A stretch of DNA of 33,504 nt, taken from the NCBI GenBank assembly GCA_017883205.1, contig JADGNZ010000060.1:1-33504 (forward strand). Reading direction: 5' to 3'. Positions 2 through 33,464 of this stretch are shown piece after piece. Below the pieces are notes generated by a model. It had not been told where the DNA came from and ran no database searches. It saw only the letters and a program-made list of their open reading frames with translations. The stretch is from Thermoanaerobaculia bacterium (GTDB taxonomy: Bacteria > Acidobacteriota > Thermoanaerobaculia > Gp7-AA8). The translations under genes were made by a program, and so were the position numbers. How positions within the stretch are numbered: the stretch's first letter is position 1; every line of letters begins with the position of its first letter.

Positions 2-403
2 GAGCGCGGAAAGGCGACGCTTCAAGCCGAATACGCCCTCCGCCCCGTCGCACACCGCCTCTCCGCCCTTCTCGACGGCTTCGCATTCACGCTCGACAGT
101 AACCTCGCCGATGGCGGCACCGAAGCTCTCCACGGCTACGCATGGGTCAAGCATTTTGCGAAAAGCCGCGCGGGCGCCGGTATCCGTCCATTCCTGGCCA
201 TCATCCAGACCGCGGTCCGCAAGGTCATCAACCTGCGTAAGCCCTCTGCCAAGAAGCCCGCCCCGCCCACCATCCCACCCGGAGCCCAGGGACTCCTGGC
301 CCCGAACCTCGCCAACCGCAACACCGCCCCCACCATCACCGACGACGACCTCCCCGAGGATTTCCGCAAGGCCCTGGACGCCGTCAGCGACGACGAGGAG
401 TAA
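2..403 (+). CDS. Family P hypothetical protein, copy 1 (5' truncated by window edge)
   Basis: Open frame running in from the left edge and ending at TAA 401-403, leaving 133 C-terminal residues. I do not know its function. It is clearly a paralogue of the genes at 16591-17370 and 32760-33446. It shares a helical region, a basic NLRKP stretch (NHRKP in copy 2), a Pro-rich linker, the motif IPPGAQGLLAPNL, and an acidic tail ending in DFRKALDAVSDDEE. No membrane segment or signal peptide is visible in the part present. Its start, leader and promoter lie outside the window. The stretch after its stop carries a 19-bp fragment of a dispersed repeat (432-450). The coding call is strong because the conserved frame differs from the other open frames here and matches two distant copies. 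Confidence 0.85.
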   Translation, partial: ERGKATLQAEYALRPVAHRLSALLDGFAFTLDSNLADGGTEALHGYAWVKHFAKSRAGAGIRPFLAIIQTAVRKVINLRKPSAKKPAPPTIPPGAQGLLAPNLANRNTAPTITDDDLPEDFRKALDAVSDDEE

Positions 404-2963: not shown

Positions 2964-4067
2964 ATGAAACGACTTGCCTTTGCGCTTCTCGTGCTGTCTC
3001 TGACCTCGGCCACGTTCGCAGCCGACGAGCCTGAAAAACCTGCGGCCCCGGCCGAGAAGCCGGCCCCGAACCTCGGCGCACGCGCCGATAAGCTCATCAA
3101 AGACGCTCTTCCAGTCTGCGCGGGCGAGATGAAGGAGTCTCGTGTCGCCCTCACGCACAAGCTTCCGGAAAACATGCTCGGCGCCGTGATCCGTGAGGAA
3201 AGCAAGAACTCGCCATGTGAAGGGCAATGGGTGGCAGCGATCTCCAATGAAGGTGGGTTCTTCATGGGCACGCCCTGGTTTCTGGATGACACCGAGGGGA
3301 CGCTCGAGGAGCGGCTGAAGGCGTTCACGCTTCAATACATGAAGCAGGTTTTCGAACCGACGATCGATCGGACGAAGACACGCGAAGGGCTCTTCCACGT
3401 CACGCTCACGCAGGCAGTCGACGGCGGAGGCAAATTGCCGCTCGAGGGCGAGATCGATCCGGCCGGCACGGTCCTTTTCATCGGCCACTTCGTTCCGATG
3501 AGCGCGGATTACCGCACCTCGCGCCTGAAAGCCTTCGAGCACTTCCTGAGTCTTTCTCCCACAACGGGCGCCGCGAAGCCTGACGTGACCGTGATCGAGT
3601 TCTCCGATTTCGAATGTCCGTCCTGCCAGCATGCTGCCGGATATCTCAAACCGATCCTGGCCGCGCACAGCGATCGCGTCCGCTACATCCGTTACGACAC
3701 ACCGCTCGTTAGCATTCATCCGTGGGCGTTGCCCGCAGCCGTTGCCGGCCGCGCGATCTGGCATCAGAAGCCGGAGCTCTTCTGGAAGTACAAAGAGCAG
3801 ATCTACGAGAACCAGGAAAAGCTCTCCGCTTTCACGATCGACGATTTCACACGCGGCTTCGCCTCGGACCACGACCTCGACATGAAGAAGTACGACGCCG
3901 ACGTAAACTCGCCCGAGCTTCGCGCCGAGCTCGTCAACGGCGCCGGCAACGCATTCACAAACGACGTCCGCGCGACGCCGACCTACATCGTCAACGGCGC
4001 GTTCGTCGACTCAGGGGTCGATGGGAAAGGGCTCGTAGACTACGTGAACGGACTGCTGAAGAAGTAA
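2964..4067 (+). CDS. Secreted DsbA-family thioredoxin-fold protein
   Basis: A 367-residue exported protein. Residues 1-19 form a signal peptide (MKRLAFALLVLSLTSATFA, cleavage before ADEPE). A short Pro/Ala/Lys-rich linker follows, then about 150 residues of a domain I do not recognise. The C-terminal half is a DsbA-like thioredoxin domain starting VTVIEFSDFECPSCQHA, with the redox pair C218-P-S-C221 and the cis-proline loop RATPTYIVNG near the end. It probably acts in the periplasm in thiol-disulfide exchange, as oxidase or isomerase-like protein; which one cannot be told. Family members with just the thioredoxin domain are about 200 residues, so the N-terminal half is an extra module. The next gene starts 24 bp after its stop. 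Confidence 0.87.
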   Translation: MKRLAFALLVLSLTSATFAADEPEKPAAPAEKPAPNLGARADKLIKDALPVCAGEMKESRVALTHKLPENMLGAVIREESKNSPCEGQWVAAISNEGGFFMGTPWFLDDTEGTLEERLKAFTLQYMKQVFEPTIDRTKTREGLFHVTLTQAVDGGGKLPLEGEIDPAGTVLFIGHFVPMSADYRTSRLKAFEHFLSLSPTTGAAKPDVTVIEFSDFECPSCQHAAGYLKPILAAHSDRVRYIRYDTPLVSIHPWALPAAVAGRAIWHQKPELFWKYKEQIYENQEKLSAFTIDDFTRGFASDHDLDMKKYDADVNSPELRAELVNGAGNAFTNDVRATPTYIVNGAFVDSGVDGKGLVDYVNGLLKK

Positions 4068-4091
4068 TTGGGCCATTCGGCCTGCGGATTC

Positions 4092-4529
4092 ATGGACGTC
4101 GATGCAAAGGCCGAGATCGACCGTCTGGCAGAGTCATTCTTCGGACTCTTCTCCAACCGCGATGGCGTGCGGCCTGATCTTGGCAGGATCTTCGACCTCT
4201 TCATCCCCAATGGCCTGATCGCGAAATGCACCGGCCCAGATCCGGAGATCTCAACTCTTCACGAGTTCATCGCGCCGCGGCAGGAGCTGCTGACCAACGG
4301 CAGTCTTACGGACTTTTCGGAGTCTGAGACTTCTGAGGGCACTCATATCTTCGGCAACACTGCGCAGCGCGTCAGCACGTATCAAAAGAGTGGCTGTCTC
4401 AATGGCGTCCCGTTCTCTACGCGCGGGGTCAAGACGTTTCAATTCGTTCGGACACGAATCGGCTGGCGAATTCTGTCAGTGAGCTGGGATGATGAGCGCG
4501 ACGGACTGGCGATTGAGGAATTGTCGTAA
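4092..4529 (+). CDS. NTF2/SnoaL-like small protein
   Basis: A 145-residue protein beginning MDVDAKAEIDRLAESFFGLF. The pattern is that of the cone-shaped NTF2-like fold: an N-terminal helix, then FDLFIPNGLIAKC, a middle region with ISTLHEFIAPRQELL, and C-terminal strands FQFVRTRIGWRILSVSWDDE. The family includes polyketide cyclases, isomerases and many uncharacterised proteins, so no reaction is assigned. I use the ATG at 4092; an in-frame TTG at 4068 directly after the upstream stop would add eight residues without a better ribosome site. It may be co-transcribed with the thioredoxin gene. It converges with nudL, only 9 bp apart. Confidence 0.75.
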   Translation: MDVDAKAEIDRLAESFFGLFSNRDGVRPDLGRIFDLFIPNGLIAKCTGPDPEISTLHEFIAPRQELLTNGSLTDFSESETSEGTHIFGNTAQRVSTYQKSGCLNGVPFSTRGVKTFQFVRTRIGWRILSVSWDDERDGLAIEELS

Positions 4530-7742: not shown

Positions 7743-9559
7743 GTGGTGCGTAGAGTAGCCGAATCCACTAATCCTCTGCTCTTCCTCCGCACCATGCCCG
7801 CGATCACCACCACCATCGCCACCCACGCGAACCAGTCGCCGTAGTGAACGTACGGCGTGACCGATGTGCGCGGCTGAAAATCGGCGTAGATGATTCCTTG
7901 CTTGCCCATCGCCAGCTCCTGCACGATCCGGCCGGTGGGATCGACCACAGCGGAGATGCCGGTCGTGCCGGCGCGCAGCAGGTAGCGATCGTTCTCGATG
8001 GCGCGCAACCGCGCTTGATTGAGGTGCTGGCGCGGAGCCGAGGTGCCGTCGTACCAGGCGTCGTTGGTGATCGTGATGAGGACGTTCGCGCCATGCACGA
8101 CCTGCGCGCGCGGGATCTGCGGGAAGACCACCTCGTAGCAGATCGCGGGACCGTAGCGGAAGAGACCATCGAGCGGCGTGTCTTTCGTCCCGAACTCGAA
8201 CTGGCCGACGGCGTGAACGAGTTTGTGCGCAAAGAAGAGCATCTTCCGCATCGGCACGTACTCGCCGAACGGCACGAGGCGGATCTTGTCGTAATGGCCG
8301 ATGGTGCGCCCGCCGCTGACGAGAAACGCCGCATTCCATAACTTCTCCGGCTGCGCCGCATCCTCGGCCACCGATCCGAGGATGACGTCGATGCCGTGCG
8401 CGCGCGAGACGTCTTCGATCGCCTGGCGATAGAAATCGGTCGTCGCATACGAAAGCGGGACAGTCGACTCCGGCCAGATCACGACGTCCACTCCGTGCCC
8501 CGTCGCCTCCTCGGTCATCGCCATCATCCGCCGGAAGATCAGCACGAGATTGTCGTTGTCCCAGCGCATCTCCTGCGAGATGTTCGGCTGCAGCAGGGCC
8601 GCGCGTGCCATCGGCGCCGTCGTCGGCCGGATGATCACTTTCTCCGCAACGTAGCCGGTCGTCCACCAGACGAAAGTGACGATGGCGACGGCGGCGATGG
8701 CGAAGATCGGGGTGGAGGGTGGGGGGTGGGTGGGGGGGTCGGGGATCGGGGGTCGGGGGTCGGAGATAGAGGCGCCCGGTATCGCGGGTGTCGCGGGCTG
8801 GGCGTCGGAGATAGAAGCAACGTACGACGTTGGGCGCCGGGGGTCGGGTGTCGGAGATAGTTGTGCTGCAGGCACTTCTGTCTCCGACACCCGACCCCCG
8901 TACCCCCGACTCCCGCGTCCCACCCCCCACACCTCACTCCCCACCCCCCGAACCACCCCCCGCACCACCAGCCACGCGATCAGCGTCGACGGCAAGAGAA
9001 TCAACACGCCCAGCGCGTACGGGCCGGCGACGCGGTCGAACTGCACGAGTGGCGTGTAGTCGGCGATCGATGCGGCGATGAGGCTCCAGGGGAAGCCGCT
9101 GAAGAGATAGGTTCGGATGTACTCGACCACTGCCCAGGCGAGCGGCACGAAGAGCCATCGCCGGAAGCGCATGCCCGGCGCGATCCGATGAAAGAGCAGC
9201 GCGAACAGGCCGCCGTACATGCCGAGGTAGGCGCACATGGCGACGAAGATGAGGACGCCGGTGATGTAGGGCAGACCGCCGTAATGCGACATCACGCGGA
9301 TCACCCACGGGACCATGAGCAGCCAGGCGATACCCTGCGAGAGCCAGCCGAGTGCGAATGCACCTTTGTAACTGCTCGCACGAGAAAGCGCGACAAACAG
9401 CGGAAGCAGGGCGATGAAGATCAACCATCCGGCGGCAACGTTCGGGAAGGACCAGGCGAAGAGGACGCCGGAGACGATGGCGAGAATTACGTTGATTGAT
9501 GTGCGCAAGGCGGGCGAAGGATATCTGCGTTCATCTGCGTCATCTGCGGAAAGCTTCAT
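7739..9559 (-). CDS. lnt: Apolipoprotein N-acyltransferase with repeat-derived insert
   Basis: Inner-membrane enzyme that adds the third acyl chain to lipoproteins. About 606 residues against ~510 in E. coli. The N-terminal part has several membrane helices (INVILAIVSGVLFAWSF, GWLIFIALLPLFVAL and more). The periplasmic nitrilase-like domain shows the catalytic triad: E364 in VIWPESTVP, K425 in YDKIRLVPFGEYVP and C474 in PAICYEVVF. The excess length is an ~80-residue Gly/Pro/Ser/Asp-rich segment at residues ~204-284 encoded by dispersed repeats, in the loop before the last helix leading to the nitrilase domain, expected to be cytoplasmic. ATG 9559 lies in a hairpin; its residues ADDADER come from another repeat. 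Its stop overlaps prfB. Confidence 0.9.
   Translation of the reverse strand: MKLSADDADERRYPSPALRTSINVILAIVSGVLFAWSFPNVAAGWLIFIALLPLFVALSRASSYKGAFALGWLSQGIAWLLMVPWVIRVMSHYGGLPYITGVLIFVAMCAYLGMYGGLFALLFHRIAPGMRFRRWLFVPLAWAVVEYIRTYLFSGFPWSLIAASIADYTPLVQFDRVAGPYALGVLILLPSTLIAWLVVRGVVRGVGSEVWGVGRGSRGYGGRVSETEVPAAQLSPTPDPRRPTSYVASISDAQPATPAIPGASISDPRPPIPDPPTHPPPSTPIFAIAAVAIVTFVWWTTGYVAEKVIIRPTTAPMARAALLQPNISQEMRWDNDNLVLIFRRMMAMTEEATGHGVDVVIWPESTVPLSYATTDFYRQAIEDVSRAHGIDVILGSVAEDAAQPEKLWNAAFLVSGGRTIGHYDKIRLVPFGEYVPMRKMLFFAHKLVHAVGQFEFGTKDTPLDGLFRYGPAICYEVVFPQIPRAQVVHGANVLITITNDAWYDGTSAPRQHLNQARLRAIENDRYLLRAGTTGISAVVDPTGRIVQELAMGKQGIIYADFQPRTSVTPYVHYGDWFAWVAMVVVIAGMVRRKSRGLVDSATLRTT
8704..8960. repeat. 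Compound GGGGGTCGG repeat cluster inside lnt
   Basis: About 250 bp of G-rich (8704-8860) then C-rich (8881-8960) DNA on the plus strand. It includes a perfect 19-bp inverted repeat: GGGGGTCGGGTGTCGGAGA at 8839-8857 and its complement at 8881-8899, around a 23-base centre. In the coding sense CTATCTCCGAC occurs three times, each followed by CCC-type units. The whole cluster is open in the lnt frame and read as SPTPDPRRP, ISDPRPPIPDP and similar. Confidence 0.88.
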
Positions 9560-13385: not shown

Positions 13386-13452
13386 ACGAGGAACGGTTAC
13401 GGATGACCGGTGAATCGAAGACGGAATGTTGAATGTTGGGACGCCTCCGTTC

Positions 13453-13545
13453 TTGGCGTCTTCGCGCCTTCGCGTGAGCGGCTTCGCGTGAACACAAGGG
13501 AATCACGCGAAGACGCGAAGAACGCGAAGAACGCGAAGGAGAACG
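13453..13545. repeat. CTTCGCGT-type inverted repeat
   Basis: Left arm of CTTCGCG units (GTCTTCGCGCCTTCGCGTGA) and right arm of GCGAAGACGCGAAGAACGCG-type units, around GAACACAAGGGAATCACG. It starts a few bases after the stop of the serine hydrolase gene and fills the gap to ruvC. Confidence 0.8.
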
Positions 13546-13549
13546 TTCG

Positions 13550-15241
13550 TTACTCCACCCGCTTCCCGGGCATATCCATTCCGTTCTGGTGCAGCGTCAG
13601 GCCGGTGGCGCGTCCTGCTGCGTCGGTGACGAACGTGATCTGGGCGTCCACGACCTTGTAGAAGTAGTCATGATCGCTCTCGGCGAAAACTTCGAATTTC
13701 GGCTGGGCGGTGGCCTGGACAAACAGGTGGTTGTCTTCGCGGGTCACGGTGAGCACGAAGTTCGGCGCGAGCTGGTAGCGGCCGGTGTATCCGTCAAAGA
13801 TCTTCGGATCGACGGCAATCGCCTTGTGCTCTTTCACCGGTGGAGGCTCGCCTTCCATTCGCTTCGCAGGATGGTCGGCGCCGTTCTGATGTTGTACGAG
13901 ACTCGTCGCGCGGTCGTTCGAATCGACGACGAACGTGAGCTGCGCGTCGAAGTCTTTGAAAAAGAAGTCGCGGGCACCCTCGGCCAAGATCTCGAACCGC
14001 GGCTGACCGGTAGCTTGCGCGTAAAGCCGGTCGCCGTCCCGCGTGATGGTTAGGATGAAATTCGGAGCGAGCTGGTAGCGGCCGGTGTATTTCTCGAGAA
14101 CGGCGGCGTCCACCTTCACCTCATGCCGTTCCTTCGCCGGCTGCAGTAGCGGGACAGCGGGATCCAGAAGATGCTGGCCGATGTCATCGGCGCCGGCGTT
14201 CGTCGACGTGTTCGAGAGCACAACGACGCCGGTGCGGCTCTTTGGATCGAAGCCGATCCAGGTGCGGTAACCACCAGTGCCGCCGTTGTGCCAGATGATC
14301 TCGTGTCCGTTGCGGGTCCAGATGTGCCAGCCGAGGGCGATCTCGAGGTTTGGGTTGCCGGTTGGACGGCGCGCGGCAATCATCGCGGCCATCGATGGGG
14401 CCAGCGGTGACTTCTCGATGCCGATGTTCGCGGCGAGGAAGGTCAGCAGATCGTTCGCGGTCGATCGCAGCGCGCCGGCTCCGGCCAGAGTCGGGATGTC
14501 CCAATTCGCTACCTGGCGAAGTCCGGCGTCGTGACCGGGAGTGAGATGCTCTTTCATCGACTTCGAGAGTGTGATGGCGGTGCTCTTCATCCCGAGCGGT
14601 TCCAGAACCCGGGTCCGCAACAGCGTCTCGTAGTCGGTCCCGGCGCGGAGGGCCAGCGCGTGGCCGAGAAGGCCGCCGCCGAGGTTCGAGTACTCGTACT
14701 TCGAGCCGATGTCGCGGGTGAGCTCGACGGTGGCGAGGAACTCGTAGAGCTGCGCTACTGAGAAGTCAGCGTACGGATTGGCGGGATCTTTCGGATGAAA
14801 GTTCGTGGGCATGCGAGGCAGACCGGACGTGTGCGTGGCCAGATCGACGAGGGTGATCTTCTTTCCGCCGCGCTCGGGCACCTTCACGTTCGGCGGGAGA
14901 TACTTCGAAACGGGATCGGTGAGAGCCACTTCGCCGCGCCGTACTGCCTCAGCGAGGAGCAGCGATGTGAAGACCTTCGTGACGGAGCCGATCTCGAAGA
15001 CGGTATCGGCGTCGACAGGGCCTTCTCCCTTCTTCGTGCTTGCGTACGCAATCGTGCGCCGGCCCGACGGATCGATGACGCCGACGACCATGGCCACGCC
15101 CTGCCGCTGCTCGTCGATGCGGTCGGCGAGGATGGCCCGGATGTCCTTGTCCGGCAGCATCGCACCGGAGCCGGCATGGGCGAGAAGAACGAGGCTGAGG
15201 ACGACGACGACGCGCTTGAGCGATGCTTTCAATGTTTTCAA
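13550..15241 (-). CDS. Serine beta-lactamase-like hydrolase with duplicated C-terminal domain
   Basis: A 563-residue exported protein. A signal peptide (LKRVVVVLSLVLLAHAGSGA) leads into a class C beta-lactamase/esterase-type domain with S86-V-T-K89 (nucleophile and base), Y184-S-N186 and H318-N-G. Two tandem copies of a ~95-residue beta-rich domain follow, each with YTGRYQLAPNF, a central LYAQATGQP or LFVQATAQP and a closing LHQNG-type stretch. They resemble the DUF3471 domains that follow such hydrolases, usually present once. The substrate is unknown; peptidases and esterases are as likely as beta-lactamases. Start TTG 15241 with AGGAGG upstream overlaps the previous stop as TTGA. Third gene of the ECF operon. 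Confidence 0.85.
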   Translation of the reverse strand: MKTLKASLKRVVVVLSLVLLAHAGSGAMLPDKDIRAILADRIDEQRQGVAMVVGVIDPSGRRTIAYASTKKGEGPVDADTVFEIGSVTKVFTSLLLAEAVRRGEVALTDPVSKYLPPNVKVPERGGKKITLVDLATHTSGLPRMPTNFHPKDPANPYADFSVAQLYEFLATVELTRDIGSKYEYSNLGGGLLGHALALRAGTDYETLLRTRVLEPLGMKSTAITLSKSMKEHLTPGHDAGLRQVANWDIPTLAGAGALRSTANDLLTFLAANIGIEKSPLAPSMAAMIAARRPTGNPNLEIALGWHIWTRNGHEIIWHNGGTGGYRTWIGFDPKSRTGVVVLSNTSTNAGADDIGQHLLDPAVPLLQPAKERHEVKVDAAVLEKYTGRYQLAPNFILTITRDGDRLYAQATGQPRFEILAEGARDFFFKDFDAQLTFVVDSNDRATSLVQHQNGADHPAKRMEGEPPPVKEHKAIAVDPKIFDGYTGRYQLAPNFVLTVTREDNHLFVQATAQPKFEVFAESDHDYFYKVVDAQITFVTDAAGRATGLTLHQNGMDMPGKRVE

Positions 15242-15867
15242 TGTTCCTCCTGAAGACGAGACAGCTCGTCGATTTGTCGTTGATAGCCGCGCGCCTTCCG
15301 GAGGTTCAGCGGAATCGCCGCGATCATAAGGACAACGAATGTGATGATCTGGAAACGGATGAGTTGCACTTCCAAAGTCGCGAGGCTTGCGCCGGTGGTT
15401 GCTTTTATCCACAAAACTTCCGGGTGTGCCTGCACGAAACCGGCGGCGAAAACGAGCGGCCCGGGAAAGAAGAGAAGCAAGCGCCTCCAGAGACGCGCGC
15501 CGCGATGAAAATCGCGCCACCGCGCCAGCTCGGTCCGGAGGTGATCGAGTGAGGCCGTTTCGCCGGCATCACCGGTAGCAGCTCCGCGAAACCGATTCTG
15601 ACGGATCTGCCAGGCCAAATAGCTGTACCCGACGATTGTCAGGATGGCTCCAATCGTTTCCAGTGAGCTCATCCCGAGAAACATCGCGCTGATGCAAATG
15701 ACGATCATGATGGCCCACACCAGGTAAACGTCGAAGGCATCTCTGCGCAGCACGCGGTTCATTGTTTCGATCTTCCTGTGGATGTCTTCGGTGCTCATGC
15801 GAAATCCGTCGGTGCCCTGGGCCTGCCAGAGCTTGACGACGTCATCGGGCTGACTGTCATTGGCCAT
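15238..15867 (-). CDS. Four-helix membrane protein, candidate ECF partner
   Basis: A 209-residue protein. A soluble N-terminus (MANDSQPDDVVKLWQAQGTD, then MSTEDIHRKIETMNRVLRRD) precedes two membrane helices (VYLVWAIMIVICISAMF; IGAILTIVGYSYLAW), a cytosolic loop and two more (LLLFFPGPLVFAAGFV; IITFVVLMIAAIPLNL), then a charged end. I recall proteins with a comparable LWQ...MS.E.I.R. start next to ECF sigma genes, so an anti-sigma-like role is possible, but it lacks the Hx3CxxC zinc motif and this is inference. Its ATG overlaps the sigma stop by 11 bp and its TGA overlaps the hydrolase TTG. Confidence 0.78.
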   Translation of the reverse strand: MANDSQPDDVVKLWQAQGTDGFRMSTEDIHRKIETMNRVLRRDAFDVYLVWAIMIVICISAMFLGMSSLETIGAILTIVGYSYLAWQIRQNRFRGAATGDAGETASLDHLRTELARWRDFHRGARLWRRLLLFFPGPLVFAAGFVQAHPEVLWIKATTGASLATLEVQLIRFQIITFVVLMIAAIPLNLRKARGYQRQIDELSRLQEEH

Positions 15868-16387
15868 GGCGTTCTCCCTTGAACATCGTGTTGAAGCGGC
15901 CGGCGAGAATCTTCTTGATGCGATGGATCTTCGTAGCCACGTTGCCCGGCGAGATGCCGGTGATCTCGGCGATTCCTGCGGCGTCGGTTCCTTCAAGATA
16001 GAGGAGGATGACCTGCCGCTCGAGCGGATTCAGTTGCTGGATGAATTCGCGGAGGCGTCCGAGCGACTGCTGAAGTCCGAACGCGCCCTCGGAATCACCA
16101 TCACCGGCCGGCAAATCGTCGATTTCGTCGAGGCTCACCAGCGGCCGCGAACTGAAGCGCCGGTGCCGGACGACATGAGTGGCGGCCACGTTGTGCGCCA
16201 CGCGATAGACCCACGTTCGCAACGAACAGTGGCCGGCGAACACTTCGAAGCTCCGCCAGATGGCGAGATGGATGTCCTGGAGCAGATCGAGACGCTTGTC
16301 GCGATCCGCCTCGTAAGAGCCGGCCAGCCGTTCCAGCGCAGCGCCATACACGCCCGCCGCCTCCTGATACAGCACATCCTGCGACAT
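15857..16387 (-). CDS. ECF-type RNA polymerase sigma factor
   Basis: A 176-residue sigma-70 family protein. Region 2 spans roughly residues 20-90 (DLLQDIHLAIWRSFEVFAGH, then LRTWVYRVAHNVAATHVVRH), which recognises the -10 element; region 4 lies at about 110-170 (LNPLERQVILLYLEGTDAAG, then ISPGNVATKIHRIKKIL), a helix-turn-helix for the -35 element. There is no region 1.1 or 3, as expected for ECF factors. It heads a three-gene operon with a membrane protein and a secreted hydrolase. A TGTAAG-16-CGACTA promoter upstream looks like its own ECF target, implying autoregulation. Confidence 0.92.
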   Translation of the reverse strand: MSQDVLYQEAAGVYGAALERLAGSYEADRDKRLDLLQDIHLAIWRSFEVFAGHCSLRTWVYRVAHNVAATHVVRHRRFSSRPLVSLDEIDDLPAGDGDSEGAFGLQQSLGRLREFIQQLNPLERQVILLYLEGTDAAGIAEITGISPGNVATKIHRIKKILAGRFNTMFKGERHGQ

Positions 16388-16412
16388 CCGCTAAGTGTCC
16401 CTCCGAATGAGG

Positions 16413-16440
16413 TAGTCGATGGCGGAGGGTGTTTCTTACA
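16413..16440 (-). promoter_or_regulatory. Candidate ECF-type autoregulated promoter
   Basis: On the minus strand TGTAAG (16440-16435) and CGACTA (16418-16413) are separated by 16 bases, about 25 bases before the sigma ATG. The spacing and the GTAAG/CGACTA pair fit an ECF-type promoter. A GGAGGG ribosome site lies further down, 11 bases before the ATG. Confidence 0.55.
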
Positions 16441-16445
16441 GGTCG

Positions 16446-16510
16446 TTCTTCGCGTCTTCGCGTCTTCGCGTGAGTGCCGGGAATCACGCTAAGGCGCGAA
16501 GACGCGAAGG
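16446..16510. repeat. CTTCGCGT-type inverted repeat
   Basis: TTCGCGTCTTCGCGTCTTCG and right arm GGCGCGAAGACGCGAAGG around GAGTGCCGGGAATCACG. Same family as 13453-13545. It separates the family P terminator from the sigma promoter. Confidence 0.8.
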
Positions 16511-16513
16511 AGA

Positions 16514-16556
16514 AAGAAAAATTGCCGCCCCTCGGGGGTCCAGGCCGAGGGGCGGC
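16514..16556 (-). terminator. Intrinsic terminator of family P copy 2
   Basis: Minus strand: GCCGCCCCTCGG and CCGAGGGGCGGC pair as a 12-bp stem (16524-16556) and are followed by AATTTTTC. It lies 35 bases after the stop of the 16591-17370 gene. Clear stem plus T-run. Confidence 0.85.
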
Positions 16557-16590
16557 GTCTGCCATCTAGTTTGGCAACGAAGGCGAAACC

Positions 16591-17370
16591 CTAATCCTTC
16601 GTTGCTCGGTCCAACGCCTCGTTGAAGCTATCGGAATACTCATCCTCGCCAACTTCCTCGCGGGGAACCAGATTCGGAGCGAGGAAAGCTCGAGCGCCGG
16701 GCGGCAACTGCGTGGGTGGCGGAGCCGGTGCCCCCGCTTTCGGCTTGCGGTGATTGAGCACCTTCTTCACCACGTGCGACATCGCGTCGACATACGGAAT
16801 GAGAGCGGCGGCATCGGGACGTTTGACGTACGACTTGCCCCACGAGTAGAAATCGAGAGCCTGCGACCCCGCCTCGGCCGCGCCGTTGTTGACGGTGAAC
16901 TGCAGCCCATCGGTCAGTGCGGTGAGGCGCTGGATCACCGGTAGAAACGCGTTCTGCCTGCGGATGGCCAATTGGTTGGCCTCGATGTCGAACAGGTTCC
17001 GCTGGGCGGCCGGCGGGAATGACATGCACGCGGCGATGGTCGGCACGACCAGCTCGGGAGCGAAGCGGGCCATCGCCGCCACGCGGCGGACGTCGCGCGG
17101 ATCGTGATGCTGGAAGTCGGGGATCTGCGCCTGGAACTGATCGATCATGGCGATGAACGATGCCGCCAGATCCTCGGGCGTGGTCTCAGGCCCGGGCGTG
17201 GTTGGAACACCCGCGGCAGCGACATCGGCGCCGCTGGCCCGTTTGGCGCGTTTGCCCTTCGCTGCAGGATGGGCCGATGCGCCACGTTTACCGGTGGGCG
17301 CGCTGCTGCGAACGCGCTTGCCGGAGGGTTGAGGGGTACTGCTGCTGCTACCGCTACGGTTCTTCTGCAT
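16591..17370 (-). CDS. Family P hypothetical protein, copy 2
   Basis: A 259-residue protein of unknown function. Residues 1-50 form a Lys/Arg/Ser/Ala-rich tail (GKRVRSSAPTGKRGASAHPA, KGKRAKRA), reminiscent of histone H1-like tails, then a helical domain with IPDFQHHDPRDVRRVAAMAR, NLFDIEANQLA and DAMSHVVKKVLNHRKP, a Pro-rich linker, LPPGARAFLAPNLV, and an acidic end (EDEYSDSFNEALDRATKD). Copies 1 and 3 share this order. A nucleoid or nucleic-acid role is suggested only by the basic tail. Start 17370 is fixed by GGAGGTGAG; a longer in-frame start lacks this. It has its own terminator and is divergent from the array region, so it is its own unit. Confidence 0.88.
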   Translation of the reverse strand: MQKNRSGSSSSTPQPSGKRVRSSAPTGKRGASAHPAAKGKRAKRASGADVAAAGVPTTPGPETTPEDLAASFIAMIDQFQAQIPDFQHHDPRDVRRVAAMARFAPELVVPTIAACMSFPPAAQRNLFDIEANQLAIRRQNAFLPVIQRLTALTDGLQFTVNNGAAEAGSQALDFYSWGKSYVKRPDAAALIPYVDAMSHVVKKVLNHRKPKAGAPAPPPTQLPPGARAFLAPNLVPREEVGEDEYSDSFNEALDRATKD

Positions 17371-17380
17371 TCTCACCTCC
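17371..17380 (-). promoter_or_regulatory. Strong ribosome binding site of family P copy 2
   Basis: GGAGGTGAGA directly before ATG 17370 decides the start. Confidence 0.85.
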
Positions 17381-17384
17381 ACAT

Positions 17385-17407
17385 CCACGCGCATGATCCG
17401 CGCGTGG
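17385..17407. promoter_or_regulatory. Leader hairpin / inverted repeat of family P copy 2
   Basis: CCACGCGC - 7 bases - GCGCGTGG forms a perfect 8-bp stem four bases upstream of the ribosome site. A very similar CACGCG - 7 - CGCGTG lies at the same place before copy 3 (33465-33483). It may be an operator or an mRNA structure. Confidence 0.6.
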
Positions 17408-17649
17408 GGTTGCCACTCCGTCCACATCTACTTCGAGGTACTGGCCGTCAGCCACGCGCTGCCGGCCGGAAACTGCTGGTACTAGAAGGTGAGACGCATG
17501 AGAACGGCAGAGGTTACTTTTGGGGTTCCGGGTTTCGGGGCTGTGGGCCTGCCGGCTGGCCAGGCGATGGGGTCACCTCCGACCCGCCCGGCGAGGGCGT
17601 GCGCGCTCCGGCCGGCCCGTATCCTCTTGCTGCCAAAGGAGTTGGGCGA

Positions 17650-17990
17650 TGATGCCAACAAGTTTCTTGTTGCCGTCAACAAGATCGGTGTTGGCGTCAA
17701 CAAATATTTTGGTGGGCTCAACAAATTTTTGTTGGCGTCAACAAAACTTGTGTTGAGGTCAACAAACTTTGTGTTGAGCTCAACAAATCTTTTGATGGCG
17801 GCAACAAACTTTTTGTTGACCTCAACAAACTTTTTGATGGCGTCAACAAACTTTTTGTTGGCGTCAACAAACTTTGTGTTGAGCTCAACAAGTTGTTTGA
17901 TGGCGTCAACAAAACTATTGATGGCGTCAACAAAACTTTTGATGCGGTCAACAAGTTTTTTGTTGAGCTCAACAAAATTTTTGTTGACAC
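17650..17990. repeat. Array of sixteen 21-bp palindromic units
   Basis: CAACAA recurs at 17656, 17677, 17698, 17719, 17739, 17760, 17781, 17802, 17823, 17844, 17865, 17886, 17907, 17928, 17949 and 17970: spacing 21 every time except one step of 20. The unit is CAACAAACTTTTTGTTG plus four variable bases. Two symmetry centres alternate, CAACAAA/TTTGTTG and GTTGAGCTCAAC (perfect at 17773, 17878 and 17962). The longest palindrome is TTTTGTTGAGCTCAACAAAA at 17958-17977. The array is AT-rich in a GC-rich window. Units differ by a few bases, so it is not a recent slippage product. 21 bp is two helical turns, so all centres face the same side of the DNA. Confidence 0.93.
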
Positions 17991-18138
17991 CATGGTGGAT
18001 TGGTTTCGTAAAGCAACTGATTTTGGAATAAAAACGCTCAAAACGAGGCGGTTTGCCTCAGCGGCGTGCTCGTTTATTCCCGGTGGGGGTGATTCCTCGC
18101 TGCTCCCGCCGGCGGGACGCCGCCAAGCCAGCCGGCGA

Positions 18139-18196
18139 GGACGCCAGCGTTCCATCCGCTCGTGGCGTGCATTGTGCCGGCGGAACGCTGGCGTCC
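18139..18196. repeat. 15-bp inverted repeat of the GGCGGGACGCC type
   Basis: GGACGCCAGCGTTCC (18139-18153) and its exact complement GGAACGCTGGCGTCC (18182-18196) around 28 bases, flanked by CCGGCGG stretches. A dispersed palindromic element between the array and trmB. Confidence 0.75.
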
Positions 18197-18247
18197 CGCC
18201 GCCTACTTCGCGGCTCGGCGGCTCAGCATGACACCGCGGGCAAGTGT

Positions 18248-18312
18248 GATCTGTTCTCTGATCTCTTGTCTCTGATCTCTGCTTCCCCACTCCCTACCCC
18301 CCACCCCCCGCC
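18248..18312. repeat. GATCAGAGA and GGGGTGGGG repeats at the trmB 3' end
   Basis: In trmB sense, TAGGGAGTGGGGAAG continues the stop codon, then CAGAGATCAGAGACAAGAGA and TCAGAGAACAGATC follow. The G-rich part also encodes the last trmB residues (RAGGGG). Confidence 0.55.
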
Positions 18313-18917
18313 CTCACAAACCGAACCTCGAAGATCGGCCGGCCTTCCTCCCGATACTTCGCTTCGTAATTCGTTCGCGGCGGATCGCCGACGCCCGGCA
18401 CGCGGCGCTCGCTCGGGAAGAACTGCTCGATCACCGGCGCGGCTGCTTCGTAGTAGTCGCGGTGGTCGGTGACGAAGATTCCGCTCCCTCCTGGCACCAG
18501 CACCCGTCGCATCTCCCCAAGCGCCTCGGCGCGGATGATGCGGCGCTTCTGTTCGCGCTTCCGAGGCCATGGGTCGGGGAAGTAGATGTGGATCTCATCG
18601 ATCGACCCGTCGGGAAGCATGTCGCGCAGGACGAGAAAGGCGTCGTGGTTGATGAGGCGGACGTTGGTCAGACCACGCTTGATGACGCGGTCGCGGATGA
18701 CGCGGTGGTAGTGCAGCGACTTCTCGACGCCGATGTAGTTGACGTCCGGATGCTCGATCGCGCCGGAGATGAGAAAGCGTCCCTTGCCCGAGCCGATCTC
18801 GAGGACGACGCGATTGCGGTTGCCGAACATGGCCGCGACATCGAGGCGTACGAAACCGCTCTCGCGCGGGTCGATGACGAAGTCAGAAGCGTTCACGGCG
18901 GCATCATACGCAAGCAA
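18294..18917 (-). CDS. trmB: tRNA (guanine-N7)-methyltransferase
   Basis: A 207-residue Rossmann-fold methyltransferase that makes m7G46 in tRNA variable loops. Visible motifs: VVLEIGSGKGRFLI (SAM binding, residues ~38-51), IHIYFPDPWPRKREQKRR (catalytic and tRNA-contacting signature) and TNYEAKYREEGRPIFEVRF near the end. Start TTG 18917 has AAGGA nine bases upstream; an in-frame GTG at 18896 is the alternative. The C-terminal RAGGGG comes from a G-rich repeat that runs into the stop codon. Divergent from the ECF sigma gene at 18980, 62 bp away. Confidence 0.93.
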   Translation of the reverse strand: MLAYDAAVNASDFVIDPRESGFVRLDVAAMFGNRNRVVLEIGSGKGRFLISGAIEHPDVNYIGVEKSLHYHRVIRDRVIKRGLTNVRLINHDAFLVLRDMLPDGSIDEIHIYFPDPWPRKREQKRRIIRAEALGEMRRVLVPGGSGIFVTDHRDYYEAAAPVIEQFFPSERRVPGVGDPPRTNYEAKYREEGRPIFEVRFVRAGGGG

Positions 18918-32759: not shown

Positions 32760-33446
32760 CTACTTGGTGACGTCTTTCAAGGCCTGTTCGAAACGGTCCG
32801 CGACATCTTCCGGCTCATTGGTCTTGTCGGGGGTTCTGTCGGAGACGAGATTCGACGCCAGGAATCCCTGAGCGCCAGGCGGGATTTGAGACGTCGTCGT
32901 GGTGGAAGGGGTGGGAGCCGGTGCCGGTGCCGGCTTCTTGCGGTGGTTCATCGTCTTCTTGACGATTTGCGACATGGTGTCGACAAAGGGCTGCAAATCA
33001 GCGCCGTCGGGCTGCTTGACGGCGTGCTGCGCCAATCTGTAGACCTGAAGCCCCTGTACGGACGAGGCGGCAAGCAGGTTGTCGCTGGTGAACATGACAT
33101 CGTTGGCGAACTCGATCAACTGCATCGCCAGCGGGACGACCTGATCCTTGAACTGACGCGCAAAGTGCCCGGCATCGACGTCGAACAGGTTGCTCTCCTT
33201 CATCCGAGGAACGTTGGCAACCAGGTTGATGACGGGGATGATGGCGTCGTTTCCGAACTTGGCGCTCGCCGCAATGCGCTTGATCTTCTTGGAGTCGAAC
33301 TTCTGAAGATCAGGCACGATCGCAAGGAGCGTCACAAGGACGGCCCGAAACTGCTCGGCAATCGCATCGGCCGTCGCTGCTGCGGTTACTGCTGGACTAG
33401 TGGTGACAGGAGGAGGGTTAGAATCTGGAGCGTTAGAGGTTGACAT
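32760..33446 (-). CDS. Family P hypothetical protein, copy 3
   Basis: A 228-residue protein of unknown function, paralogous to 16591-17370 and to the partial gene at 2-403. A short Pro/Thr/Ala-rich start (NAPDSNPPPVTTSPAVTAAA) replaces the basic tail of copy 2. The helical domain carries IVPDLQKFDSKKIKRIAASA, NLFDVDAGHFA, FVDTMSQIVKKTMNHRKK, then a Pro/Thr linker, IPPGAQGFLASNLV, and an acidic end (EPEDVADRFEQALKDVTK). Of two in-frame ATGs (33452, 33446) the second is chosen because GGAG lies six bases before it. A hairpin like that of copy 2 sits upstream. Confidence 0.86.
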   Translation of the reverse strand: MSTSNAPDSNPPPVTTSPAVTAAATADAIAEQFRAVLVTLLAIVPDLQKFDSKKIKRIAASAKFGNDAIIPVINLVANVPRMKESNLFDVDAGHFARQFKDQVVPLAMQLIEFANDVMFTSDNLLAASSVQGLQVYRLAQHAVKQPDGADLQPFVDTMSQIVKKTMNHRKKPAPAPAPTPSTTTTSQIPPGAQGFLASNLVSDRTPDKTNEPEDVADRFEQALKDVTK

Positions 33447-33464
33447 CGTCATCTCCGGTTAAGG

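Follow-up and report, generated by a model that had tools for sequence, protein, structure and literature searches.

Introduction

Plasmid iterons are helically phased repeats of about 20 bp that lie upstream of a Rep gene. They occur as few repeats on a replicon, and the Rep protein is a winged-helix protein. In type III toxin-antitoxin systems, repeats precede the toxin gene. KfrA of plasmid RA3 is an alpha-helical protein that represses its own promoter and has a charged C end that binds DNA non-specifically (PMC7783346). The autoregulation, the oligomerisation and the N-terminal helix-turn-helix (HTH) of KfrA are experimental results, and its operator comprises five 9-bp repeats around the -10 box (PMC7783346). 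StbA of plasmid R388 binds the stbDRs around its own promoter, which form two sets of five 9-bp direct repeats with 2-bp spacing (PMC3098194). For tandem REP arrays, PMC3116915 gives separations of 72 and 112 bp.

The locus described here lies in a window (the whole stretch of DNA that was analysed) of 33,504 nucleotides from the genome of a Thermoanaerobaculia bacterium. The locus pairs an array of about 16 palindromic units with a gene of family P, an all-helical protein family without annotation, and as a genetic unit it appears to be undescribed. The pairing recurs in the window genome and in its relatives, and it is practically certain that the array and the P gene form a module.

The P arrays are similar to iterons in that they consist of phased repeats of about 21 bp upstream of a protein gene. 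Unlike Rep, P has no winged-helix match in Pfam. Like KfrA, P is alpha-helical, has a positively charged C end and has a repeat array on the promoter side, ahead of its own coding sequence. Unlike the KfrA operator (PMC7783346), a P array comprises between 5 and 30 palindromes, each about 21 bp in size, and such arrays are found dozens of times in one genome, with mostly unlike units. No HTH is established in P, and the P-array pair is known here from sequence whereas KfrA is known from experiment (PMC7783346). A KfrA-type N-terminal domain has no Pfam or NCBIfam match at E 1 in the two window P proteins, and Pfam finds no common family among 32 members. The P locus also resembles StbA and the stbDRs, since there are regular repeats near the gene of a binding protein, which is putative here. 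However, the stbDRs are direct repeats and not palindromes, they belong to a single locus, and the binding of StbA is experimental (PMC3098194). KfrA and StbA show that such a design exists. Judged by its sequence, P belongs to neither family.

ParR-parC is likewise an array with a cognate protein, in several families and with private specificity, a likeness that is putative for P. Unlike ParR-parC, which works with ParM (PMC9426499), the duplicated P unit of the cleanest locus pairs contains no such partner. As with REP sequences, REPINs and RAYT, the P palindromes are tied to a protein gene and further copies are dispersed in the genome (PMC3116915). RAYT is a tyrosine transposase (PMC3116915), but none of the libraries searched gives a transposase match for P, and both P models are all-helical. 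A Y1 HUH transposase family is not matched by P in Pfam. ToxIN also combines tandem repeats with a protein gene, but in ToxIN the protein is an endoribonuclease and the repeats serve as an RNA antitoxin (PMC8860590); no RNA signature was found in the P arrays. A ToxN-like endoribonuclease is matched neither in Pfam or PADLOC (32 P members) nor in NCBIfam (two members). Where the defining features of known families could be looked for, none was found in the P locus. The mechanism likely resembles that of plasmid operators and centromeres.

The Array and Its Neighbours in the Window

The features of the window are as follows (positions in the window).

2..403, plus strand: second family P gene, truncated at the contig start
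13388..18311, no strand given: block of about 4.9 kb with a beta-lactamase-like gene, an unassigned ORF, a sigma-70-family factor, P and the array (names from Pfam)
16524..16556, minus strand: terminator-like hairpin 3' of P (read from the sequence)
16591..17370, minus strand: family P gene, 259 aa, ATG at 17370 (ORF, paralogues and model)
17371..17380, minus strand: ribosome-binding-like GGAGGTGAGA immediately 5' of the ATG (read from the sequence)
17656..17986, minus strand (taken as the P-gene sense): palindrome array with about 16 units at a 21-bp period (one step of 20 bp), 5' of the P gene
32760..33452, minus strand: third family P gene, with about 50 bp of upstream sequence before the contig end

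The sequence CAACAA occurs 16 times in the array, first at 17656 and last at 17970. The steps are 21 bp in 14 of 15 cases and 20 bp in the remaining one (17719 to 17739). Tandem Repeats Finder places the array at 17656-17986 with a period of 21 and 15.8 copies, and this is the longest array in the window. The array has an autocorrelation of 0.75 at lag 21; among 1000 shuffled versions, the highest value at any lag from 5 to 69 is 0.39. These three results agree with the repeat count and steps given in the original prediction, which was also right that the array is richer in A/T than its surroundings: the G+C content is 38% in the array, 62.5% in the whole window and 62.5-65.5% in the flanks. 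A high A+T content is not a general trait of P-linked arrays. The P-linked arrays of the window genome have a mean G+C content of 52%, with a range of 38-68% (n = 43).

In the P-gene sense, the window unit is TTGTTGA, two variable positions and TCAACAA, together with near variants. The arms are mostly kept and the middle varies. A perfect 16-bp palindrome is present in one of the 14 units caught by a loose pattern. Each unit had been described as palindromic about two alternating centres. The second centre is present, formed between neighbouring palindromes, and the GTTG..CAAC centre is the one that reappears in the unit of a related P locus in G002 (TGTTGACGGCAAC). A promoter scan around the window array finds none, with 0.4 expected.

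The array is separated from the P gene by 285 bp. For this gene, the start at 17370 is favoured over a start at 17427 because GGAGGTGAGA directly precedes that ATG. The layout of the protein is a low-confidence N tail, a helical bundle (model residues 65-205) and a basic, Pro/Ala-rich C tail. The hairpin 3' of the gene has a perfect, G+C-rich 12-bp stem (16524-16535 with 16545-16556) and a 9-nt loop, followed by AATTTTTCTTT. The hairpin scanner takes loops of up to 8 nt, and this hairpin is not in its list.

The block at 13388-18311 is missing in all three relatives compared (G001, G002 and G009), and the same flanking genes are separated there by 86 to about 870 bp. The gene names RuvC and TrmB are presumptive assignments, made from the sequence rather than by family search. 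Both contig ends (1-403 and 32760-33504) lie in or just before a P gene. More than 10 further contigs of the window genome also carry P at one end, a pattern that would arise if P modules interrupted the assembly.

Sequence, Structure and Distribution of Family P

A search with the window P protein finds 47 places in the window genome, and a profile of 32 members finds 66 family P matches. Among 18 genomes of the taxonomic family, five contain family P, with 65, 54, 28, 9 and 2 copies, and the other 13 contain none. A named relative, probably of the same genus as the window, is Thermoanaerobaculia bacterium isolate Chersky.31_28. In a draw of 396 genomes from the phylum, with the best seven candidates per genome scored, family P is present in four: three of the same taxonomic family, including the window's own, and one weak case from another class. 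The weak P locus of the other class has a 42-bp repeat in 2.3 copies.

No Pfam, PHROGs or PADLOC family has matches in two or more of the 32 P members. NCBIfam has no match for two window P members, and neither Pfam nor NCBIfam has one at E 1 for the two window P proteins. A DNA-binding domain is not recognised in P by Pfam (32 members), NCBIfam (two members) or fold comparison, and no transposase, nuclease or recombinase family is found by Pfam, NCBIfam or PHROGs. Relatives of the window P protein are absent from 50,697 phage and 72,556 plasmid records by tblastn. Viral contigs yield 74 pattern matches to P, none of which is confirmed.

The AlphaFold models of the window P protein and of a distant paralogue share the same plan, with a confident helical bundle that includes one 53-residue helix and with less confident tails. 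In Foldseek comparisons of the two models with the PDB, the best E values are 5.5 and 3.6. VIA-align gives best Z scores of 4.8 and 4.2 among 27 and 19 chains. Foldseek against a viral library, with the second P model only, finds nothing below E 0.5, and a profile search of PDB sequences with P finds nothing below E 0.66. The comparison of these predicted structures shows neither a new nor an old fold. At least five K/R residues are present in some 12-residue stretch of the last 60 residues in 79% of 111 P proteins. On average, P/A/S/T residues make up 43% of the last 40 residues.

Arrays Upstream of Family P Genes

In five genomes, the window's own and those of relatives, a 21/21.5/22-bp array is present at most 1.5 kb upstream of 95 of 119 evaluable P genes and downstream of one of 134. 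No array is detected upstream of the other 24 evaluable genes. Arrays were accepted in both sets of P loci if they had periods of 19-23, 41-44, 62-65 or 83-86 and a length of at least 80 bp, so that other periods cannot show in these counts. In the first set, where at least 1 kb of upstream sequence is available, an array is found upstream of 85 of 102 P genes and downstream of one of 118. The upstream counts by genome are 40/48 (G000), 6/7 (G001), 22/24 (G002), 16/21 (G009) and 1/2 (G016). The 85 include at least four genes that come second to another P, with the array on the far side of the first (C2:39381, G001 C61:20965, G002 C132:6902 and G002 C179:159068). The first set comprises 66 rows from G000, 28 from G002, 22 from G009, seven from G001 and two from G016, which is only part of the P matches of G001, G002 and G009. 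Each row is an ORF or fragment with E up to 1e-4, rows less than 200 bp apart are merged, and rows with less than 1 kb upstream are set aside.

Among the further P loci, 10 of 17 have an upstream array and none of 16 has a downstream array. The single downstream array (L026) resembles a Lys-rich coding repeat. On contigs C49 and C73, control ORFs with a minimum length of 200 aa have an array upstream in 8 of 221 cases and downstream in 11 of 221. Because arrays are frequent upstream of P, nearly absent downstream and rare at other ORFs, the array is taken to be the 5' companion of P. The link between the array and the neighbouring P gene, which had been suggested from the window alone, is upheld in the window genome and in its relatives.

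Divergent P pairs that share one array are seen at C100:100727-102638 (L165) and C21:4439-6309 (L163) of G000. A second small gene lies 3' of the hairpin after P at L166, C49 near 179700, L121, L082, L112, L195 and L196. A further weak P match follows the first P on C81, G001 C61, G002 C132 and G002 C179. The ORFs after 29 P genes have no common family by blastp clustering and Pfam, except for M4 peptidase and small proteins. For example, the gene after P at L215 encodes an M4 (thermolysin/protealysin-like) metallopeptidase (3177-4337, Pfam), and a similar gene follows P on G001 C51 and C30, G009 C48 and G000 C95 (blastp clustering). The order of P and then M4 metallopeptidase is perhaps an older arrangement.

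Spacing, Symmetry and Diversity of the Units

In the arrays that could be scanned, the centre-to-centre spacing is 20-22 bp in 960 of 995 intervals and exactly 21 bp in 808, with spacings below 13 bp outside the reach of the scan. The other 35 spacings are 40-43 bp (17), 63 bp (4), 13-18 or 23-27 bp (11) and longer (3). Tandem Repeats Finder favours even spacing, so that evenness inside one array is partly built in; a spacing of 21-22 bp common to unlike arrays is not. CRISPR/TIGR-like unique spacers are absent from the eight arrays examined, in which the whole unit repeats.

The units are palindromic above chance. At least six of eight pairs about the best centre are complementary in 55 of 88 units (20-23 bp), compared with 16% of shuffled units. 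The conservation of the unit is lowest beside the palindrome centre (0.81) and highest in the arms (about 0.88-0.90), which is the pattern of dimer sites. Mismatches in the P sense comprise 234 G:T and 242 C:A pairs. Since these numbers are close, selection looks double-stranded, and nothing here suggests that the array is preserved as single-stranded RNA. Compensated double changes number 75, compared with 34.6 expected. Non-compensated double changes also number 75, and no inference is drawn from either count.

Unit sequences are mostly unrelated between loci of one genome. The identity of P proteins and the similarity of their units are correlated (Mantel r 0.30, 91 P genes), and none of 1000 permutations reaches this value. 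This correlation may come from joint descent alone. Similar P proteins with similar units are found, for example, at G000 C42 and G002 C107 (GAGTAC..ACTC) and at G000 C3 and G002 C85 (TAGTTC..GAACTA). Units are unrelated despite 81-90% P identity in the pairs C97/C67 (G000), C193/C188 (G002) and C51/C21 (G009). When segments of P are compared with the unit, weak peaks appear in several places, with partial correlations of at most 0.31 compared with 0.28 for the best of 100 permutations, and none is singled out. The statement that spacing is kept while units differ extends from the window to unlike arrays at other loci. A recurrence of the same 21-bp unit had also been envisaged; the 21-22 bp phase and the palindromic symmetry do recur, but the unit itself mostly changes from locus to locus.

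Candidate Mechanism

The best reading of the locus is that P dimers assemble on their own upstream array, to which we give slightly less than even odds (a probability of about 0.46). P is proposed as the binder because the kept arms and loose centre suit a dimeric DNA-binding protein, because a spacing of two helical turns places the sites on one face, and because P goes with the array, is helical and has a basic tail. The module itself, its polarity, phase, symmetry and duplication, and the presence of arrays in samples of P-rich but not P-poor genomes are observed. The one-sided association, the fixed spacing, the symmetry, the Mantel correlation, the basic C tail and the occurrence of arrays in P-rich but not P-poor samples count in favour of binding by P. 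Points against it are that no DNA-binding domain is recognised and that units are unlike in some P pairs of 81-90% identity, so that a few residues would have to set the specificity of a sequence-specific binder. Also against it are the arrays without P, the evaluable P genes without a detected array and the possible origin of the correlation in joint descent.

The array would be the DNA half of a two-part locus, and the adjoining family P gene would be the other half. P, as a small, all-helical protein with a basic tail, would bind the palindromes as a dimer. With sites two helical turns apart, dimers would line up on one face of the DNA and could assemble cooperatively, forming a single extended nucleoprotein complex ahead of the gene that encodes them. 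P would thereby regulate its own expression. In addition, the complex might pair with P-less arrays that have the same unit at other places in the genome and may be additional sites. The array, P and hairpin would spread together within the genome, and subsequent divergence of array and protein would give rise to many private pairs.

The dozens of loci with different palindromes suggest a large set of matched protein/DNA-site pairs on one genome. A more far-reaching version is improbable as a whole. It holds that there are dozens of distinct, self-spreading, centromere-like modules of an undescribed protein family, in which each P reads its own array and the P-less arrays of the same unit, and that these form a many-coloured address system that regulates loci or ties them together. 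If P binds its own arrays, one genome would hold dozens of natural, diverged protein-operator pairs of the same geometry. These would permit direct tests of DNA specificity and target co-change, of selection on helix phase and of array spread, and the multi-site DNA-binding pairs would be usable as tools. The one-sided pairing of P with phased palindromes at most of its genes is a strong regularity whether or not P is the binder. No description of the array-P module was found in the open-licence full-text literature, a scope outside which most subscription journals and all preprints fall.

Duplicated Modules and Arrays without P

A hairpin (stem of at least 10, one mismatch allowed) is present at most 70 nt past the stop codon in 70% of 123 P genes, compared with 9% of 202 other ORFs. 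The array and P are duplicated together in a segment about 1.2-2.2 kb long, as a comparison of 20 locus pairs shows. In the cleanest pairs, the alignment begins at the array, stops shortly after P and extends little or not at all into the flanks, and the duplicated unit in these pairs comprises the array and P only. The other pairs have broken alignments. Aligned pairs are listed by locus pair, alignment columns and percentage.

L164/L165: 1379 columns, 90%
L157/L087: 1572 columns, 81%
L021/L022: 1379 columns, 85%
L024/L027: 1220 columns, 87%
L106/L111: 1237 columns, 93%
L212/L213: 2160 columns, 82%

An empty-site search with the C3 locus gives matches only inside the module and none to the flanks.

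Of the 10 arrays of at least 100 bp on C49 and C73, eight have no P within 1.5 kb, and two of these eight lie at a contig end. C49 was sampled as a known P carrier and C73 for its large size, with no P matches listed for it; the surveys of sampled contigs had no narrow period limit. A stretch of C91, sampled as a known array carrier, contains two arrays, both without P within 1.5 kb. Excluding this stretch, there are 10 arrays in 360 kb of G000. G009, which is P-rich like G000, has three in 200 kb, and the P-poor genomes G010, G012 and G016 (0-2 P matches) have none in 526 kb, with the G009 and G016 stretches taken from contigs known to carry P. In the same samples, arrays of other periods are three in G000 (78 or 165 bp) and three in the P-poor genomes (7, 9 and 18 bp). 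Among 20 P-less rows, eight have a minimum of 30 nine-mers in common with a P-linked array at another locus, four pair mutually and the rest match little. The P-less rows C1:156664 and G002 C132:9302 sit upstream of P just past the 1.5-kb limit, and the P-less rows C32:224 and C73:11882 resemble coding repeats.

These observations bear on an unlikely alternative, a mobile or selfish unit in which P helps the array, P and hairpin to copy themselves, the array provides end-binding sites and the P-less arrays are non-autonomous, as REPINs are for RAYT transposases. The alignment of paralogous loci from the array to just past P, the patchy copy number among genomes and the common P-less arrays, some of which share nine-mers with P-linked ones, are all in keeping with mobility. 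In addition, several arrays of unlike units have the same end sequence, and the window locus is missing at the matching site in three relatives. However, the block that is absent from the relatives carries three other ORFs and is thus not the unit itself; the search for target duplications covered the window junctions. P has no transposase, nuclease or recombinase match and nothing marks it as an enzyme, and transposition needs no long phased arrays.

Other Explanations

Assembly of P on its own array also competes with binding of the array by a host factor, so that changes in copy number would alter the expression of a variable protein family. The P-linked arrays are 5' only and of differing length, and P is a large, divergent paralogue family, as this explanation would have it. 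A single factor, however, should select one common unit, and the units differ between loci of the same cell. Such arrays are also absent from the samples of P-poor relatives. A host factor in place of P is quite unlikely.

It is very unlikely that the array acts as RNA, with transcribed tandem hairpins that bind or neutralise P in the manner of the repeat RNA of type III toxin-antitoxin systems. The order of repeats and then protein is the same, palindromes can fold, and compensated double changes exceed expectation. Non-compensated changes are equally many, G:T mismatches have no excess over C:A in the P sense, and a fixed period of 21-22 bp is unexpected of RNA. With a permissive threshold, Rfam gives 33 matches in window 16400-18400, mostly to miRNA families, and all are below their own gathering score. 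No ToxN-type family is matched in Pfam or PADLOC.

Neutral minisatellite expansion without function, placed near P by chance or descent, has a slender chance. It is in line with the point changes between units inside an array and with the lack of a nearby P for most arrays on the two sampled contigs, but it does not account for a one-sided association with P in five genomes, above-chance symmetry and one phase for unrelated units.

The coding core of a repetitive protein, also offered in the original prediction, is disfavoured for the array family as a whole and can be set aside almost entirely, because, although the 21-bp period fits seven codons and a 180-codon open frame (17489-18031) runs across the window array, the 20-bp step moves the heptad in every frame (the first four units are NK repeats in one frame and the remainder in another), the smallest period in 19 of 89 P-linked arrays is 20, 22, 41, 43 or 64 bp, which are not whole codons, and the first three sister arrays to be read have open frames that differ in sequence.

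Other Repeats and Array Ends

Short ACGCGAAGA / TCTTCGCG repeats are present in the window at 13505-13538 and 16447-16471. Dispersed repeats of the ATCTGCGTCATCTGCGGATC type are found at 9523-9550 of the window and in dozens of places in G000. They often form close inverted pairs, and some adjoin arrays. The end sequence that arrays with unlike units can have in common contains a palindrome similar to GGCAA-N3-TTGCC at L047 (1500-1625), L009 (3400-3510), L010 (2476-2572), L046 (about 1100) and L011 (about 3100-3145). At L046 and L011, an inverted copy of this end is visible by eye on the opposite side of the array.
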